The translations under genes were made by a program, and so were the position numbers. A stretch of 64,000 nucleotides of DNA from Opeltia flavorubescens (lineage: Eukaryota; Ascomycota; Lecanoromycetes; Teloschistales; Teloschistaceae): positions 682,001 to 746,000 of the forward strand of contig KE546981.1 of NCBI GenBank assembly GCA_000442125.1. The letters run 5' to 3'. Below the pieces are notes generated by a model, which was not told the DNA's origin, ran no database searches, and saw only the letters and a program-made list of their open reading frames with translations. This document shows positions 43,611 to 57,286 of the stretch, piece after piece; the stretch's first letter is position 1, and each line of letters begins with the position of its first letter.

Positions 43611-44779
43611 GAAAAGGAGAATGCCATGCTGTATCAGTCTTGACGAGATTCATTGGTCGCTTTATGCACAGTGCTTTTATAGAGGCCGTTAGTGAGATGC
43701 AGTGGGATGACTGTTAGTCTAGAGGATCTCATCGACAAAGGTAGAGAAAAAACTCATGAAGTCTCTGATATTTACCACGCGGCCTCCGACCAGTCGCTCA
43801 ACTGCTGTCCAGTAATAACTGTCTTGAGGAAGTGCTTGCAAACCAGCAGCATCGGGGGATTGCAAAAGCAGAGTAATGAACTCAAAATCAGTGTGAGTTC
43901 GGATCCCCGTGTAGTCCGCAGCGGAGGGTGCAGCCGACAGATGACAGGCAGGGTAATAAAGCAGGCGAGCTGTTTCACCAGGGTGAGTGGTAGATATCGA
44001 AGTAATCTTCGGGCAACTGCAGCGACAGCGCAATGATGCGAAGGAGGTGTTTCGAGAGCTGAAGGAGCTACAGTCTGACAGCTGGCCCCAAGCCATGCTG
44101 GACAGCATGAAACACAGCGTTTACCTACTTGGCCATAGATCCTTTGTATACCTTAGAAGAAGCCAGGGAGGTCGGCCTTTTCCGGCCAGATACTGTATAT
44201 TGAGGTGCTGACATCCTCCACATACTTGCCCTCTCCACCCGAGGGATACAGCTCGGCCTGGTATCCCCAATTAAAGACTTCTTTGTGCTCGAGGGGTCTT
44301 TTGGGTTTAGAGATGTTGCCGTCTTCGAGTGAAGCCAGATATTCCGAGTACTCGGATGGCCCCCATCCCCGAAGCATGGGTGAATGTTTAACACGAAATT
44401 TCACCTTCTTCTCCTGGGGTAGGTCCTTGAAAAACCTCTTCGCCAGAGCTAGGGCTTTTTCGCATACTTAATTGGGGATACCGTGATTGATGACCTGAAA
44501 GAAGCCAATATCTGTGCGCGCAGGGTATATCTGTCTTGCGACCTTCATGCGAACCTGAAGGGAAGGGGAAAAGGATGGAGCAAGACTGATTTTTGGGACT
44601 CGATGAGCAAGCGGAGCATCAGTATCCGCTATGGTTGCTCTGTTCAAGATGACTTGGAGATCCAGCTGGGCTTGCTGAAGTTCGGGCACAATTCCAGAGA
44701 TTGAGGATGATGTGCGCTGGTGGTAGTGGCACCAATCATAAGCAACTTTTTTGATGACTCGATTGAATGCCCCCTTCAC
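43570..44779 (-). pseudogene. 2-oxoglutarate/Fe(II) dioxygenase (isopenicillin N synthase-like) pseudogene
   Basis: Minus-strand segments in family order. IGFFQVINHGIPN is followed by an in-frame TAA (44468-44470) and then KALALAKRFFKDLPQEKK. EYLASLEDGN, HKEVFNWGYQ and IWPEKADLPGF come next. Then IALSLQLPEDYFDIY shifts frame into HPGETARLLYYP. GIRTHTDFEFITLL carries the iron-binding HxD (about 43887-43895), and NGLYKSTVHKATNE carries the distal His (about 43665), with a TGA in the following SRQD-YSMAF segment. Enzymes of this family hydroxylate, desaturate or cyclise small molecules, often in secondary metabolism. At least two in-frame stops and frameshifts make it non-functional. The TAA fits a CpA-to-TpA change. 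Confidence 0.85.
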
Positions 44780-44845
44780 AAAAGCTCAACAACAGTTCTT
44801 GAACAAACGTCTTTTCGATTCACATGTGAATTCGCTCTGTTACTC

Positions 44846-44949: not shown

Positions 44950-47900
44950 ATGGGTCCATCTGCAGTGCATCACCAAACGGGTTAGTCATTTTTCAATCTT
45001 GTGTGAGAGCGGGGTTGACCCTCTGTAAAGCCCTTAACACAGCTCGGCCAGCGGCTCAACAGGCTCTCCTCACTTCAACTCCCACTGCCCATGCCACCAC
45101 CGTCACAGAAGGTACCGAAGGTGGAGTGGAATACCCGCAGGCCAAGAGACGAGGTGCGTGACATTCCCATTGCCGGTTGCTTGCCGCGAATTGCCTCCAT
45201 TCATCTCCGTGCTGACGGACACTACATTATTTAGACGAGAAAGAGCGCCTGAAAGCTGAGAAACTCGTGAAATTTAAAGCCAAACAGAACAAATCGAGCA
45301 CATTAACTGTACCAAAGAAAGAGGGGGTGGCTAGGTCCAATACTGTCGATGCCTACGAGCCCAAAAAGGTTGAACAAGGCCGTTACGAGTGGTGGGAGAG
45401 CAATGGCTTCTTCAAACCCCAATTGCACAATGGCAAGGTCAAGCCCGAAGGCACGTTCGTCGTTCCTATCCCCCCACCGAACGTTACTGGATCTCTGCAC
45501 ATGGGTCACGCCTTGACAAACGCCTTGCAAGATGTCATGGTACGTCACGCTCGCATGCTCGGCAAATCTACTCTTTGGGTGCCAGGATGTGACCATGCGT
45601 CCATCTCAACTCAAGCAGTAGTCGAGAAGATGCTTTGGAGAACACAGGGGAAAACCCGTCATGAGATTGGGCGTGATAAGCTCCTAGAGATGATCTGGGA
45701 GTGGACACGAAAGTATAAGGGAAACATTACGAATCAACTTAAGCGCCTTGGTGGCTCCATGGACTGGGGACGTGAAGCGTTCACAATGGATGAGAATTTG
45801 ACAGAGGCAGTCAAGGTTACTTTCATCCAGCTCCATGAAGAAGGTATCATCTACCGCGCTGATCGACTGGTCAATTGGTGTTCAGCCCTGGAAACTTCGC
45901 TGTCAAACATTGAGGTCGACAACAAAGAGCTATCGGGCCGTACCAAGCTAAGTGTACCAGGTTACAGCAACACAATTGACTTTGGTGTCTTGACATATTT
46001 TAAATACCCGGTCAAAAAGTCCAACGTCGCTGCTGTGGACCACGAAAATTTCGCCGACTGTGATTTCATCGAGATTGCCACTACGAGACCAGAGACGATG
46101 CTTGGCGATACTGCGATCGCGGTACATCCTAGCGATAATCGGTACACACATCTTATTGGCCGCACAGCTGTCCACCCATTCATTCCCGAACGCCATATCG
46201 CAATTATAGCCGACGCGGAGGTGGATCCTGGATACGGTACGGGAGCTGTTAAAATTACCCCGGCTCACGACCCCGCGGACTTTGTCAAGGGCAAAAAGCA
46301 TGACTTAGAGTTTATCAATATCCTGGAAGCTAACGGATCGCTGAATAAAAATGCTGGCCCGCGATTCACTGGTCAGAGGCGGTTTGAAGCACGTTATACC
46401 GTAGTGGCCGCATTGAAACAGAAGGGCCTCTATATAAAGGAGGAGTCTCATGCAATGACAATTCCGATCTGCCAACGTAGCAAAGACATTATTGAACCAC
46501 TCTTGAAGCCCCAGTGGTGGATGAAGATGAGCGATCTGGCGCGGGCCGCTGATTCTGCCGTTATCAATAGTGAAATCAAGATACAGCCCCGGACGGAAGA
46601 GAAGCGGTTTCACAACTGGATGCAAACAGTTCAGGATTGGTGTCTCTCACGTCAACTTTGGTGGGGTCATCGTGCACCTGCCTATCATATCCAGATCGAA
46701 GGGATGGATCCTGACGAGACCAGCGCGGACGATACATACTGGGTCTGTGCACAGAATGAACTCGAAGCTTATACGAAGGTCAAGAAGAAATTTCCGAGTC
46801 ATAATTTCACAATCCATCAGGACGAGGACGTTCTAGATACGTGGTTCTCCGCTGGATTGTGGCCATGGGCCATCCTTGGCTGGCCAAAAAAGACCATTGA
46901 TTTCGAATCGTTCTACCCGACCTCAATACTGGAGACTGGCTGGGACATTCTATTCTTTTGGGTTGCAAGAATGATCATGCTAGGTATTAAGATGACGGGT
47001 AAGGTACCGTTTAAAGAAGTCTACTGTCATTCACTGGTCCGAGATTCCGAGGGGAGAAAAATGTCAAAATCTCTCGGGAACGTAATCGATCCATTAGATA
47101 TTATTAATGGCATAACGAGCGAGGCACTCCAGGCACAACTGAAGTCTGGCAACCTTGATCCTCTCGAACTCGAACGCGCGTTGGCTTATCAGCTATCCGC
47201 GTTCCCGAACGGCATATCGGAGTGTGGTGCTGATTCCCTCAGATTTTCGCTGGTCAACTACACCACTGGCGGAGGCGACATCGCGTTTGATATCAAGGAG
47301 ATTGAGGCCAAGAGACGATTTTGCAACAAGATTTATCAGGCGACAAAATTCGTTCTAGGTAGACTTGGGCAAGAATTTCAACCTACTTCAGGCCCAATCC
47401 AGCCATCTACGCTGGCAGAGAAGTGGATTCTCCACAAATTGAATTCCACAGCAAGCACAGTCACTCAAGCCATCGAATCTCGAAACTTCTCGGTTGCAAC
47501 ATCGGTGCTTTACCGATACTGGATACACGAACTTTGCGGCACATTCTTAGAGAACTCTAAAATTGTACTTCGATCAGAGACCGATGAAATCGAGCGAGAG
47601 TCGATCCAACAAACTTTGTACTTTGCACTGGAGGGTGGCTTATTACTTCTTCATCCTATAATGCCATACTTGACGGAGCATCTCTGGCAGAAGCTACCAC
47701 GCCGTGAAGGTGACACTACAGCCAGCATCATGATTGCAAAATACCCTCAGTACAATATCCTATGGGAAGATCCAGAGGCAGTGGAGGACTATGAGTTCAT
47801 CCGGTCAATAGCCGACGGTATCCGTGGCTTGCTCTCCACCTACGGCTTCAGAGAACCAGGCAGTGTCCTTATCAGATTGCATAACGAGGAACGCATGAAT

Positions 47901-48278
47901 CTTGTTCAGAACCAAGCCACCATGATTATCTCTCTAGGCGGCAAGTATTTGGGAGAAGTCACTTGCGAACATTCTTCTCCTGACTCGCCTCTTCCCAAAG
48001 CGTATGCTCTTCGAAGTATCAATGATGATGCTACGGTTCTCTTAAAGATAGGCACTGGAGTTGACTTGGAGGATATAAGATCTAAGCAACAGCAGAACCT
48101 GGACAAGGCTCAAAGTAATGTGCAGAAGAGCCAGGCCATTATAAGTCAGATAGGATGGTCTAGAGTGGGAAATAGAATGAAAGCAGAAGAAAATGCAAAA
48201 TTGCAGAATTCGCTGAGCGAAGTGGCTCGACTTGAAGCAGCACTGGTAGAGCTTCAGAGACTTATGTTGGAAGCCTAG
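44950..48278 (+). CDS. VAS1: Valyl-tRNA synthetase (cytosolic/mitochondrial)
   Basis: Charges tRNA-Val with valine and edits mischarged threonine. Exons 44950-44980, 45043-45153 and 45235-48278 give 1,061 residues. Both introns (62 and 81 nt) have GT-AG ends and keep frame. The class I signatures are present: PPPNVTGSLHMGHAL with HMGH at about residues 136-139, and GRKMSKSLGN at about 655. Editing-domain motifs such as TTRPETMLGD, the anticodon-binding domain and a C-terminal coiled-coil arm of valyl enzymes follow. Length fits fungal Vas1. The first 33 residues have no acidic side chains and could serve as a mitochondrial presequence, as the single fungal gene usually supplies both compartments. 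The start is inferred from splicing and family similarity. Confidence 0.95.
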
Positions 48279-48626: not shown

Positions 48627-48752
48627 TGAACCACACCTGATTTGAACAGATAACCTTTCGATCTGGAGTCGAACGCGCTACCGTCTATTGTCCATATTAG
48701 TATGGACAACAAGATATACTGAGAAAGAAAAGACATACTGCGCCAGCGGTCC
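48627..48752 (-). tRNA. tRNA-Trp(CCA) with a 54-nt GT-AG insert in the D-loop
   Basis: Removing 48685-48738 leaves a 72-nt cloverleaf. Acceptor GGACCGC pairs GTGGTTC (two G-U) with discriminator A. The D-stem is GCGC/GCGC with loop AACGGTA. The anticodon stem TTCGA/TCGAA is perfect with loop CTCCAGA (CCA, Trp). The variable loop is AGGTT and the T-arm is ATCTG/CAGGT with loop TTCAAAT. The insert splits the D-loop between two A residues, and its removal restores the canonical eukaryotic tRNA-Trp string GGCGCAACGGTAGCGC. There is no intron at the usual 37/38 site. The insert starts GTATGT, has a pyrimidine tract, TACTAAT and ends TAG, which looks like a small spliceosomal intron. The B box is intact, and the A-box core TGGCGCAGT runs into the insert. 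A disrupted, inactive gene is the main alternative. Confidence 0.88.
48685..48738 (-). other. Candidate intron inside tRNA-Trp
   Basis: 54 nt on the minus strand. The 5' end is GTATGT, then TCTTTTCTTTCTC, then a perfect 9-bp hairpin (arms TTGTCCATA and TATGGACAA, loop CTAA), ending AATAG. The branch-like TACTAAT lies across the loop, about 12 nt from the AG. Length and signals match the protein-gene introns of this window (48-65 nt). It is not a bulge-helix-bulge tRNA intron that I can recognise. Confidence 0.75.
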
Positions 48753-50979: not shown

Positions 50980-53774
50980 TCATTGTTTTCGATGCTCTGG
51001 ATGGCTGGCGAGTTGACTGAGGACATAATCTAAAACATACCCATTCTCGTCCGCCACCTTTGTTAAGTCTGTTTGGATAGCCCCAACCACTCTCTGCGCT
51101 ACTCTTAATTCTTGGGAGAGCGAAGTCATGTGATCCTTTAGGAATGGACCTTGTGTACTTAGCAAGCACTCGATCCAGCGTAAGTTTCTTTCTAAGTGTG
51201 GCGAGGCATCGGTGGTCTGCGCTACTAGACGAATCAGCCGTGCAAGGTAGACTGCCGGTAATTCATTGATTAGCCCACGGATTTCTGTGAGCGGTATGGC
51301 TTCGTAAACTCGTTTTAGTAGAAAGCTCTCGTTGAGGCGGAAACCCATGATAAGGGCGCGGAGATATTGCCGCTCCTTCAGACTCGTCAACGTGCTGGCA
51401 CGCGTAACATCAATGTCGAGATCGAAAGGATCGAAATGCCAAGTGTGATCGAGGGAGTAAACGAGTAAGCCTTCCGTTGATGCTGCGCAGAAAGCTCTAC
51501 CAGTCGGAGAAAATGCCACTGCTGTCACCCGGACCTCTGGCCGGACGCGTCTCGATGAGAAATCGCCACGTCTGGCACCCGGTAAGGTACTGTCATCAAC
51601 ACTCGGCGACTCAGCCTTTCCGATTAGAGAAATTGCCCGGCCCGCTTCTGTAAGCGTACTGCTATTAAGGTACTCCTGAGTCCCATCAAGAGACAAATTG
51701 ACGGAAACGGTGTATTTTTTCAAAAGACTGCCGGTGATAACATCATACAGGCATAGGTATTTGGAGTTACCACCAGCGATCATGCAACTGCCGTCCAAAC
51801 TATACGAAAGGCAGTTGAAATTCTTGCTCCCTGCGACATTCGCCGCCGTGCGTCGGTCACCCAATTTTCGGACCCCAGAGATGTCTCGGCGGGTGTCCAG
51901 GCCGGTAGATTGAGTCGCTTCGGCTATTGACCAAAAGGTCAACTGTCCGTCCAGCGTGGAAACGGCAACTTGCTTCGAGTCTGGCCGGATTAAGACGGCT
52001 GTGATATCCGATTGTAGGTGTAATGCCTCACTTGATTGAGTTCGATCGAATATGTTCCAGACACGCACTGTATGATCCCAGCTGCCGCTAACAAGAATGC
52101 CCCCAGCAGGAGCGAAATCTAATGACGAAACAGGGCCCTCGTGGCCTGCCAGTTGGTCTAGAAGCTGTCCTGTCTGCACGGACCAAACGTGAACATTGGA
52201 AGAATCACTCGATCCCGCACAAACGACATCGCCGCTGGGGTCCACAGCCAGGGAAGTAAAGGACAAGCGTGTTGGTGCACTAAAGGTTCGAAAGTTACGA
52301 TATCTGATCAAATCCCAAGCGCGTACAGAGCCATCAAGGCTTGCTGTAAACAAAACATTTCCTTTCTGCGAAAATCTGCATGCCGTCACGCCACTAGAGT
52401 GTTCCGTGAAAGTGACGATACAGAAACCGGACTGGACATCCCAAACTTTGACTTTTCCGTCATCCGCTGCCGTAACGACACGATTTCCTTCGGGGGAGTA
52501 AACCAAATCATTTATCGCATCGAAGTGCCCTTGCTGCTTTAGTATGTAGGATTCAGATTGCCATTCCCATACAAGCAATTGCCCAAGCTTCGCAGCTCCC
52601 AGGGCAAGCCAATCTCCCGATTGATTGATGGCGATGTCATCGATTCCTTGCTGCGAGAGACTACGCCTACATCAGACGTAGCTCCGAAAACGTTGGTGAT
52701 CTGACAAACCTTAAAGTATGAATCATATTAAAGTCTGGGAGCTCGTATAAAGCAAAGAGGCCATTCGAAAACCCGGAAATAAACATATTGGAGGGAGGAT
52801 GGTATGTTGCGCACGCTACCTTCGTATTTTTCTGATTGAAATAATGCTTTCGAGCGATCCTCCATCTTGCTGGTGTGTTTCCATTACCATCATCATCTTG
52901 TTCAGGGATGCCGGCTGGTGATGAGATATACCGCCATTCGAACAGGGCGCCATCTTGGCTGACAGTAATTATCTGGCGACCGGTTAGGCATGTCTGGAGA
53001 GTTTAGGATAGCCAACCCACCGCTTCCTGATCGGCCGAGAACCATGCCCCAATGACTGCCTCTTTGTGGCCTCCCAGGGTCGTTGGCGTAAAGTCCTCCT
53101 GTGGGCTCACGCTCCAGATACGCACCGTAAGATCTCTGGCAGAACTTAGAAAGAATCTAGTATCGTTGGACCATTGCAAGCATGATATCACATCGTGATG
53201 TCCTGCATGCACTCGATGCCGCGCAAACGGGGAGAAATCAAGTCCATCGACCGAGGTAGAATTGGGACTTGAGGGAATGTGCCACACTTCGACTTGGCGA
53301 TCGACACCTGCAGCGAAATACCTGCCGGAGGGAGAGATTGCTAGGGCGGTGATAGGTGCTTTTAATGAGAAGTGATATAGAGAAAGCTGGTGGGGCAAGT
53401 ACGTGAGGATTGCTCGTCCATCCTCATCTACAGAGAGCAGCAACTTCCCATCAGACGTCAAGGCGAGACGCGAGATATTCCGTCGATGAGAGAACGGTAA
53501 AGTGTGAGATGAATTTCTACAATTTATGAGTAGCTGGAAGGTGAATTGATGATTGGAGTAATGACGAGCAACGTATAATAAAGCCTACCGAGATAGATTG
53601 AAAATACTGACACGATTTCCTACTGGGGACAACAACGAATTGCCATCTGGTGTGAAGACTAAGTTGCCCTTGCAATACACAGTCCCGAGAAGATTGGAAA
53701 ACTAGAATGGGTTAACGACTTGACGGGGCTTTTTCATGGCTGCAAGTGGCGCACACCTTAAAATCCGTCTTCAT
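50980..53774 (-). CDS. PWP2: Periodic tryptophan protein 2 (UtpB complex, U3 snoRNP)
   Basis: A scaffold WD40 protein of the small-subunit processome (UtpB), needed for early pre-18S rRNA cleavages in the nucleolus. Five exons on the minus strand: 53757-53774, 53589-53701, 53021-53516, 52710-52972 and 50980-52660. Introns are 55, 72, 48 and 49 nt, all GT-AG and in phase. The product is 856 residues, the usual size. It starts MKTDFK/FSNLLGTVY as in the family, has two WD40 propellers (for example LLLSVDEDGRAIL, QLLVWEWQSESYILKQQGH, GSWDHTVRVWNI) and a C-terminal Utp12 domain from about residue 706 to 850. The first exon is only six codons long. It converges with PRP45 across 200 bp and diverges from the septin gene. 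Confidence 0.95.
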
Positions 53775-55932: not shown

Positions 55933-57286
55933 ATGCAGAGTCCAACGAACTTCAAGCTTAAGGTTTCTCTTTTTTCAATCACGCGCCTGCCACCTTTTCC
56001 AAAAGTCACGGACCCAAGGTTTGCCATGTAATGATAATCCCCAGTAGGCATGTGGCAACGCTTAGTGGTCATGGAGGTCATCGGCCGTTTAAAAAAAATA
56101 ATCGGGACACATAGGCTGATCACGGTGCAGGTGCAATCCACTGTGTACGGTATAGCTCTGGCTTGGGCCAATATGTATGAGGATCCCAGCCTCCGAAGTC
56201 CTTCGGTACTGGCCTTACTGACAAACATCAAGATTCTAAGCGGCTCGTCCGACCGATCAATCCGGCTATACAATCCCGCAAAAGCATGCCTTTCCGCGCC
56301 CGGTTCTGGCCTTGTTCAGACCTACTCTGCCCACGGATACGAAGTCTTGGATATCTCCGTGACCGAAGACAATGCTCGGTTCGCAAGTGTGGGTGGGGAC
56401 AAACAAGTATTCCTCTGGGATGTTGCAACCGCACGGACACTGAGACGATGGGCGGGCCACTTTGGAAGGGTGAACTGTGTGGATTTTGGGGGTGAGGAAG
56501 GAAGCGTTGTTGCCAGTGGTATGTCCTACAGCTACGACCATGTAGAAGGCAGCAATTCATGCGTAGGACTAGGCACAGCAAGTATCAAGAAGACACGACT
56601 GATTCGTGATTCGTTCTCTAGGTAGCTTTGATGCAACTGTGCGCCTTTGGGACTGCAAGAGCCAGTCAACCAAGCCCATACAGGTGTTCGAGGATAGCAA
56701 GGACAGCGTCAGTAGCTTACACGTCCTCGGCCATGAAATCGTCACAGGCAGCGTGGACGGGAAGCTGAGGCTTTATGACCTGAGGATGGGGATGATGTAC
56801 GTCGACACTGTCGGTCGTAAGCAGCCCTTTATCCAATTCCCTTCGCTCAACATATGTACTGAATTGACATCCAACCAGATTCGATAACCTCTGTCCGGCA
56901 AACGAGTGATGGCAACGCTATTCTGGTTTCTACGCTCGACTCTACCATTCGACTTATGGATAAAAGCAACGGCCAGATGCTGCAGAATTATAAAGGTCAC
57001 TTCAATAAAGAATACCGAATCCGGTCCTGTCTGGGGTTCGGAGATACCGTAGTAATCAGCGGCAGCGAAGATGGGAAGATATATATTTGGGATGTTTTGG
57101 AGGGTAGAGTCATGGACACTCTTCTGGCTCACAATGGTAAAGTACCCAGTGCTGTGACTTGCAATAGCGTTCGGAAGGAATGGGCAAGCGCAGGTGCGGA
57201 TGGTATGGCACAAATTCCTCGCATGCTTTGAGGGTGGCAACTAAATGGGTGCAGGAACCGTAAAAATATGGGGTACACCAATATAG
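55933..57286 (+). CDS. WD40 repeat protein, WDR83/MORG1-like
   Basis: Homologues scaffold MAP-kinase modules and also copurify with spliceosomes; the fungal role is not settled. Exons 56048-56076, 56131-56174, 56233-56518, 56622-56813, 56879-57202 and 57255-57286 are well supported. They join HVATLSGHGG, AIHCVRYSSGLGQY, ILSGSSDRSIRLYNP, SFDATVRLWD, DSITSVRQTSDGNA and GTVKIWGTPI-stop. They make a seven-bladed propeller with the family marker DLRMG. Introns are 52-103 nt. The first exon is uncertain: ATG 55933 to 56018 keeps frame only through a 29-nt intron (56019-56047), unusually short. With it the protein has 330 residues, the family size. It follows the septin gene on the same strand. Confidence 0.85.

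Follow-up and report, generated by a model that had tools for sequence, protein, structure and literature searches.

Introns of mRNA type occur in fungal genes for U6 snRNA, a product of RNA polymerase III (Pol III), and one was reportedly described by Takahashi in 1993 in a fungal U2 snRNA gene; spliceosomal introns in the rRNA genes of ascomycetes and lichens are likewise said to have been described by Bhattacharya in 2000. The canonical site of introns in nuclear tRNA genes is position 37/38, where yeast tRNA-Trp carries its own. Spliceosomal introns in ascomycete rRNA genes also figure in a study on the lichen Cladonia grayi, whose rDNA intron of 57 nt was removed by yeast spliceosomes from Pol I transcripts, one base of its donor having been changed to the yeast form (PMC8527467). 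Ectopic tRNA introns form a separate record: the red alga C. merolae has introns in the D-loop, with bulge-helix-bulge motifs, and the nucleomorph of G. theta has many ectopic introns without a defined motif of this kind; eukaryal endonucleases are assumed to have evolved together with position 37/38, apart from that of C. merolae (PMC3978253). The tRNA and pre-mRNA splicing pathways are treated as separate machineries in a 2026 review (PMC13149111).

The locus that we present here belongs to the window, namely the whole stretch of 64,000 nt from Opeltia flavorubescens that was analysed, and sits in a 648-nt gap separating the genes for valyl-tRNA synthetase and SNW1/Prp45 (table 1). Our favoured reading, to which we assign a probability of about 0.6, is that it represents a normal cytosolic tRNA-Trp(CCA) gene with a U2-type intron in the D-loop, which the spliceosome would remove. 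Like the canonical intron of nuclear pre-tRNAs, the insert interrupts a nuclear tRNA-Trp gene, but it does so at 14/15 and leaves 37/38 empty, the anticodon loop being uninterrupted. It shares the D-loop with the ectopic introns of red algae, and differs from those of C. merolae in having GT-AG signals instead of a bulge-helix-bulge, which was not found (PMC3978253). With the lichen rDNA intron it has in common the short length, the residence in a structural RNA gene not transcribed by Pol II, the yeast-like branch site and the same spacing from branch site to intron end; the lichen host, however, is an rRNA transcribed by Pol I and its intron was experimentally shown to be removed, whereas our host is a tRNA and the evidence comes from sequence (PMC8527467). 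The introns of fungal U2 and U6 snRNA genes are comparable as mRNA-type introns in small noncoding RNA genes, yet these snRNAs work inside the spliceosome while the tRNA works in translation.

Table 1. Features of the split tRNA-Trp gene and its neighborhood, numbered along the window.
Feature	Position	Strand	Remarks
Valyl-tRNA synthetase gene	45267-48278	plus	
SNW1/Prp45 gene	from 48927	plus	
Split tRNA-Trp(CCA) gene	48752-48627	minus	54-nt insert between two exons
tRNA-Trp exon 1	48752-48739	minus	acceptor 5' strand, positions 8-9, D-stem 5' strand, A14
Insert, mRNA-type (U2) intron by sequence, 54 nt	48738-48685	minus	D-loop, between A14 and A15
5' splice site GTATGT	48738-48733	minus	
TTTT run within intron	48731-48728	minus	possible weak Pol III terminator
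11-bp hairpin, loop CUAA	48711-48686	minus	in 3' half of intron
Branch-site-like TACTAAT	48702-48696	minus	presumed branch A at 48697
3' splice site TAG	48687-48685	minus	first AG after branch site
tRNA-Trp exon 2	48684-48627	minus	D-arm remainder, anticodon arm, variable loop, T-arm, acceptor 3' strand, A73
Anticodon CCA	48666-48664	minus	
Box B core GTTCAAATC	48647-48639	minus	
First TTTT run downstream of gene	48612-48609	minus	14 nt past tRNA 3' end
Next downstream run TTTTT	48525-48521	minus	
Sub-threshold match to snoZ196/R39 C/D snoRNA family	48516-48435	minus	26/55 bits, E 0.13
PWP2 intron 2, 49 nt	52661-52709	minus	9-bp hairpin, branch site in loop
Dioxygenase-like gene pieces	44153-44785	minus	weak DIOX_N match, beside AT-rich block

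Once the insert is removed, the two exons join into a 72-nt tRNA-Trp(CCA) with 21 of 21 stem pairs (7 in the acceptor stem, 4 in the D-stem, 5 each in the anticodon stem and T-stem), of which 18 are Watson-Crick and three G-U (G2-U71, G6-U67 and U50-G64), and its predicted fold is the cloverleaf. The residues A14, A15, G18, G19, U48, A58 and A73 are all present; the spliced tRNA is identical to human tRNA-Trp in 57 of 72 positions and to the yeast one in 53 of 72, and its D-arm agrees with the human one throughout. ARAGORN calls the spliced sequence tRNA-Trp(cca), its span of 74 bases arising from one extra base added at each end. The unspliced gene, conversely, gives no tRNA with ARAGORN even when anticodon-loop introns are permitted, and neither this program nor Rfam reports any tRNA in the whole window under normal settings. 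Under permissive settings the tRNA model of Rfam gives the unspliced locus 23.8 bits, below its cut-off of 29, and takes the 5' acceptor strand from intron bases.

The boundaries of the insert can be read directly off the intact exons. Among 5,565 possible excisions, a single one, that of positions 48738-48685 with GT and AG ends, exactly restores TGGCGCAAYGGTAGCGC, the D-arm conserved among eukaryotic tRNA-Trp. Since a looser criterion (a D-loop made of A, then A or G, then 1-4 bases, then GGTA) is satisfied by 19 excisions, the exact boundary depends on the Trp D-arm being conserved. When 17,816 excisions, each 10-140 nt long, were made around the gene, ARAGORN called a tRNA in 347, the top score of 116.4 being common to the 54-nt GT-AG excision and to a 52-nt GT-AT excision that would leave a D-loop of 9 nt. 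Along the window there are 2,608 excisions of 40-80 nt of the form GT[AG]..YAG (1,273 in the GC-rich part and 1,335 in the AT-rich part, with stretches near the ends excluded), and just one of them, corresponding to our insert, gives a tRNA; none of the 5,083 intron-like excisions from three shuffles of the GC-rich part did so.

As reference for the splice signals we considered nine mRNA introns of the window, with borders defined by eye, belonging to the genes for PWP2, a septin, a WDR83-like protein and an ACT-domain protein. The spliced reading frames are open for all of them, and six are confirmed by gapless alignment across the junctions with solved chains of PWP2 (two of two), septin (two of three) and WDR83 (two of three), while for the third intron of the septin gene, the third of the WDR83-like gene and the intron of the ACT protein the support is the reading frame; two further places that may hold introns, one in the dioxygenase gene and one near the start of the WDR83-like gene at its 5' end, were excluded as unclear. 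The lengths of the nine are 48, 49, 52, 52, 53, 58, 62, 65 and 103 nt, with a median of 53. With matrices derived from these introns the insert scores 18.3, versus 9.0-17.2 for the nine scored leave-one-out, and is the best of the 127,892 54-mers on both strands of the window, none other reaching its value; with matrices from the six confirmed introns it scores 16.85 and is still first among the same 127,892. Shuffled versions of the insert never attained its score (0 of 20,000). An alternative of 61 nt, which uses the same donor with a TAG in exon 2, has an equal score but would break the D-arm.

In detail, the GTATGT donor recurs in one of the nine mRNA introns, that at 56519-56621 in the WDR83-like gene, and the presumed branch A lies 12 nt from the end of the insert, compared with 9-19 nt for the sites chosen in the nine, several of which offer two candidates. 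TACTAA occurs in none of the nine (0/9), hence the branch site of the insert is more yeast-like than those of its neighbours; stronger signals may be required of introns that reside outside genes transcribed by Pol II. The closest solved relatives of PWP2 and Prp45 point to a filamentous ascomycete as host, which may be lichen-forming or related to such fungi. mRNA introns are often flanked by AG and G; the exon borders of the insert are GCA and ACGG instead. Taking together the GT and AG ends fixed by the tRNA, the top splice score and the fact that no bulge-helix-bulge was found, the sequence traits of the insert are almost certainly those of an mRNA-type intron. The preliminary description of this DNA, which had proposed an mRNA-type GT-AG intron within a tRNA gene, is in this respect borne out: the excision gives the perfect 72-nt tRNA-Trp(CCA) and, alone among 5,565, recreates the conserved D-arm; GTATGT, TACTAAT about 12 nt from the end and the final TAG all stand at the boundaries set by the tRNA; and the 54 nt match the size of mRNA introns in the window (48-103 nt). 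The pyrimidine tract that it had also listed is present, but its place is after the donor and before the branch site.

Our comparison with the lichen rDNA intron is based on its last 18 bases, available as a printed primer (PMC8527467). Of these, 13 are alike in the insert, much of the likeness coming from the branch motif and the AG, which are spaced equally in both introns, whereas the nine mRNA introns share 3-9 of 18 with the insert and 3-8 of 18 with the lichen intron; the counts are made in end register, so that an equal distance from branch site to end favours the lichen match by itself. The matches listed from open-access literature, subscription papers being mostly outside its scope, include no spliceosomal intron in a tRNA gene. 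The earlier statement that there was no described precedent therefore stands for tRNA genes, within that literature, and falls for non-mRNA genes at large, given the introns of rRNA and U2 snRNA genes. A pattern of the interrupted D-arm found six matches in a collection of genome contigs, all bacterial and none preceding, by eye, the remainder of a tRNA-Trp, and it had 0 matches in a collection of viral contigs; three scans of the latter with uninterrupted patterns of eukaryotic tRNA-Trp likewise gave 0, so that this collection supplies no set for comparison.

The 3' half of the intron contains the 11-bp hairpin of table 1, which together with the TTTT run is new with respect to the preliminary description. 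Nine of its pairs are perfect, its predicted energy is -12.8 kcal/mol (z -3.84), a stability that none of 200 shuffles equalled, and its pair probabilities are 0.64-1.0. The last base of the loop is the presumed branch A, and the 3' arm stops one base short of the intron end. A perfect 9-bp hairpin arose in 121 of 100,000 shuffles, and 14 of 4,290 54-mers sampled from the GC-rich part have one. A comparable arrangement is found in intron 2 of the PWP2 gene, where the foot of the hairpin is the 3' splice site and removal is required by the PWP2 protein. Altogether, a branch A left unpaired within at least 7 pairs is predicted in three of the nine mRNA introns, this one included, and the hairpin of the insert need not, therefore, forbid splicing; such predicted structures would speak for compatibility, not for function. 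Shuffling retains a hairpin-held branch site in 134 of 2,000 cases for the insert and 350 of 2,000 for PWP2 intron 2. An enrichment of hairpin-held branch sites was considered and dropped, three of nine introns being too few to claim it.

The origin of this structure can be viewed in relation to fungal introner-like elements and symmetrical (stw)introns, which are U2 introns of small size, have inverted repeats or a stable predicted structure, insert without flanking duplications and have attained many copies in genes, the terminal repeats of the stwintrons being 45-55 nt long (PMC8469720). The insert resembles these elements in being a short intron of U2 type by sequence, and its hairpin may recall their symmetry; it departs from them in its single copy in the 64-kb window, its tRNA host and the shortness of its hairpin. 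This hairpin is confined to the 3' half, with no terminal inverted repeat spanning the whole intron, and neither insert nor hairpin has a second copy within the window, where the extra matches to the hairpin are those against its own opposite strand. By analogy, it may be a remnant of introner-like symmetry or a means of presenting the branch site. We also noted an 11-nt near-repeat on the minus strand (10 of 11 bases), formed by CAGTATGTCTT at 48740-48730, which spans the 5' splice site, and by CAGTATATCTT at 48721-48711, 19 nt further into the intron.

How could such a gene produce a functional tRNA? The intron, perhaps descended from an introner-like element, splits box A after TGGCGCA in exon 1, which we take to be the first seven bases of this box, while box B, with its presumed core GTTCAAATC, is intact. 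Pol III would transcribe the gene through these two elements, and the GTATG at the intron start may, in our own reading, partly continue box A. With 54 nt between A14 and A15 no normal tertiary core is expected, and the precursor would stay in the nucleus, where the spliceosome would cut at GUAUGU, UACUAAU and UAG, joining A14 to A15; the signals that it would need appear to be those used elsewhere in the same genome. In the ensemble of predicted structures, mean pair probabilities are lower in the precursor than in the spliced RNA for the D (0.33 versus 0.53), anticodon (0.36 versus 0.69) and T stems (0.38 versus 0.65), and higher for the acceptor stem (0.98 versus 0.87). Yet in its fold of minimum energy the unspliced RNA still has the four tRNA stems, arranged around the hairpin of the intron, and this makes misfolding and nuclear retention less certain than the ensemble values suggest.

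A further complication comes from termination. The first run downstream of the gene is also just TTTT, and consequently a Pol III for which TTTT suffices as a terminator would end its transcript within the intron, yielding a truncated product. For the yeast enzyme longer runs are said to be necessary; if this applies here, the real terminator may be the distant TTTTT. Near this run, 110 nt downstream of the tRNA and on the same strand, lies the sub-threshold snoZ196/R39 match, which includes AAATCACC and is possibly a snoRNA, possibly a chance hit.

These difficulties would fit a dead gene. According to this alternative, an mRNA-type intron, introner-like or reverse-spliced, recently landed in one of several tRNA-Trp genes, splicing from the Pol III transcript is inefficient and the exons belong to a pseudogene that has not yet decayed. 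The TTTT run, the split box A, the strong hairpin covering the branch site and the lower probability of the D, anticodon and T stems in the precursor all fit, and a very recent insertion would account for both intact exons and strong signals. Against it stand the undamaged exons, in which the 21/21 pairs and the ARAGORN call reveal no decay of pseudogene type, albeit in a manner compatible with a recent pseudogene, and the splice signals, which outrank those of every other 54-mer in the window. We regard a dead gene as the main rival of our favoured reading, though a rather unlikely one.

The remaining explanations change either the enzyme or the transcript. An ectopic intron of tRNA type, as in red algae, nucleomorphs and archaea, processed by tRNA splicing endonuclease and tRNA ligase, would find support in the D-loop introns of C. 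merolae, and many ectopic introns of G. theta do without a defined motif, so that the want of a bulge-helix-bulge is not decisive; the presumed co-evolution of eukaryal enzymes with position 37/38, C. merolae excepted, goes against it (PMC3978253). At the junctions of the insert, a central helix between the end of exon 1 and the 3' end of the intron was sought with 3, 4 or 5 pairs and strand ends no more than 3 nt away from the cuts; none was complete, the best having 1/3, 2/4 or 3/5 pairs, and the GT-AG ends would be coincidental despite a splice-signal rank of 1 in 127,892; we consider this route highly improbable. A complete 4-bp helix of opposite polarity, pairing precursor bases 18-21 with 71-74, was not counted, since under the polarity rule of bulge-helix-bulge cleavage the cuts would fall on the wrong side. 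We discarded also Ire1-type (HAC1) splicing, as the junctions lie outside small hairpin loops, and group I or II introns, for which 54 nt are too short. Hardly more credible is that the intron is spliced from a Pol II noncoding RNA running through the tRNA, for instance together with the snoRNA-like element at 48516-48435, the tRNA being then cut out: the downstream match on the same strand and the harmlessness that the intronic TTTT would acquire suit this idea, while the weakness of the match and the intact box B do not. Finally, a chance insertion or assembly error that happens to start with GT and end with AG could be invoked, the insert being known from a single sequence, but a tRNA from one in 2,608 excisions, a D-arm restored by one in 5,565 and the first place among 127,892 54-mers render it extremely improbable.

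If the spliceosomal reading is true, the spliceosome can serve the tRNA pathway and the supply of tRNA-Trp would depend on splicing capacity, while the range of ectopic spliceosomal introns would extend from rRNA and snRNA genes to tRNAs. Whether a spliceosomal, introner-like intron has invaded a tRNA gene transcribed by Pol III so as to make the spliceosome an obligate maturation enzyme for this tRNA-Trp is, in our judgment, evenly poised. Since scars are poorly tolerated in a tRNA, excision has to be precise to the nucleotide, and such a gene would offer a sensitive system for how introns enter genes, bearing also on the question of whether splicing requires Pol II and a cap.

In the same window, positions 1-42500 form a very AT-rich block, with 10-20% GC in most 2-kb steps, which adjoins gene-rich DNA of about 48% GC. 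The TpA/ApT index is 1.20-1.28 in the block versus about 0.67 in the gene-rich part, and (CpA+TpG)/(ApC+GpT) is 0.14-0.19 versus about 1.3, values for the block that we take to be the signature of heavy repeat-induced point mutation. Beside it, the dioxygenase-like pieces have a stop near 44470 between two parts of one apparent frame, and this gene may be decayed or carry an unclear intron.
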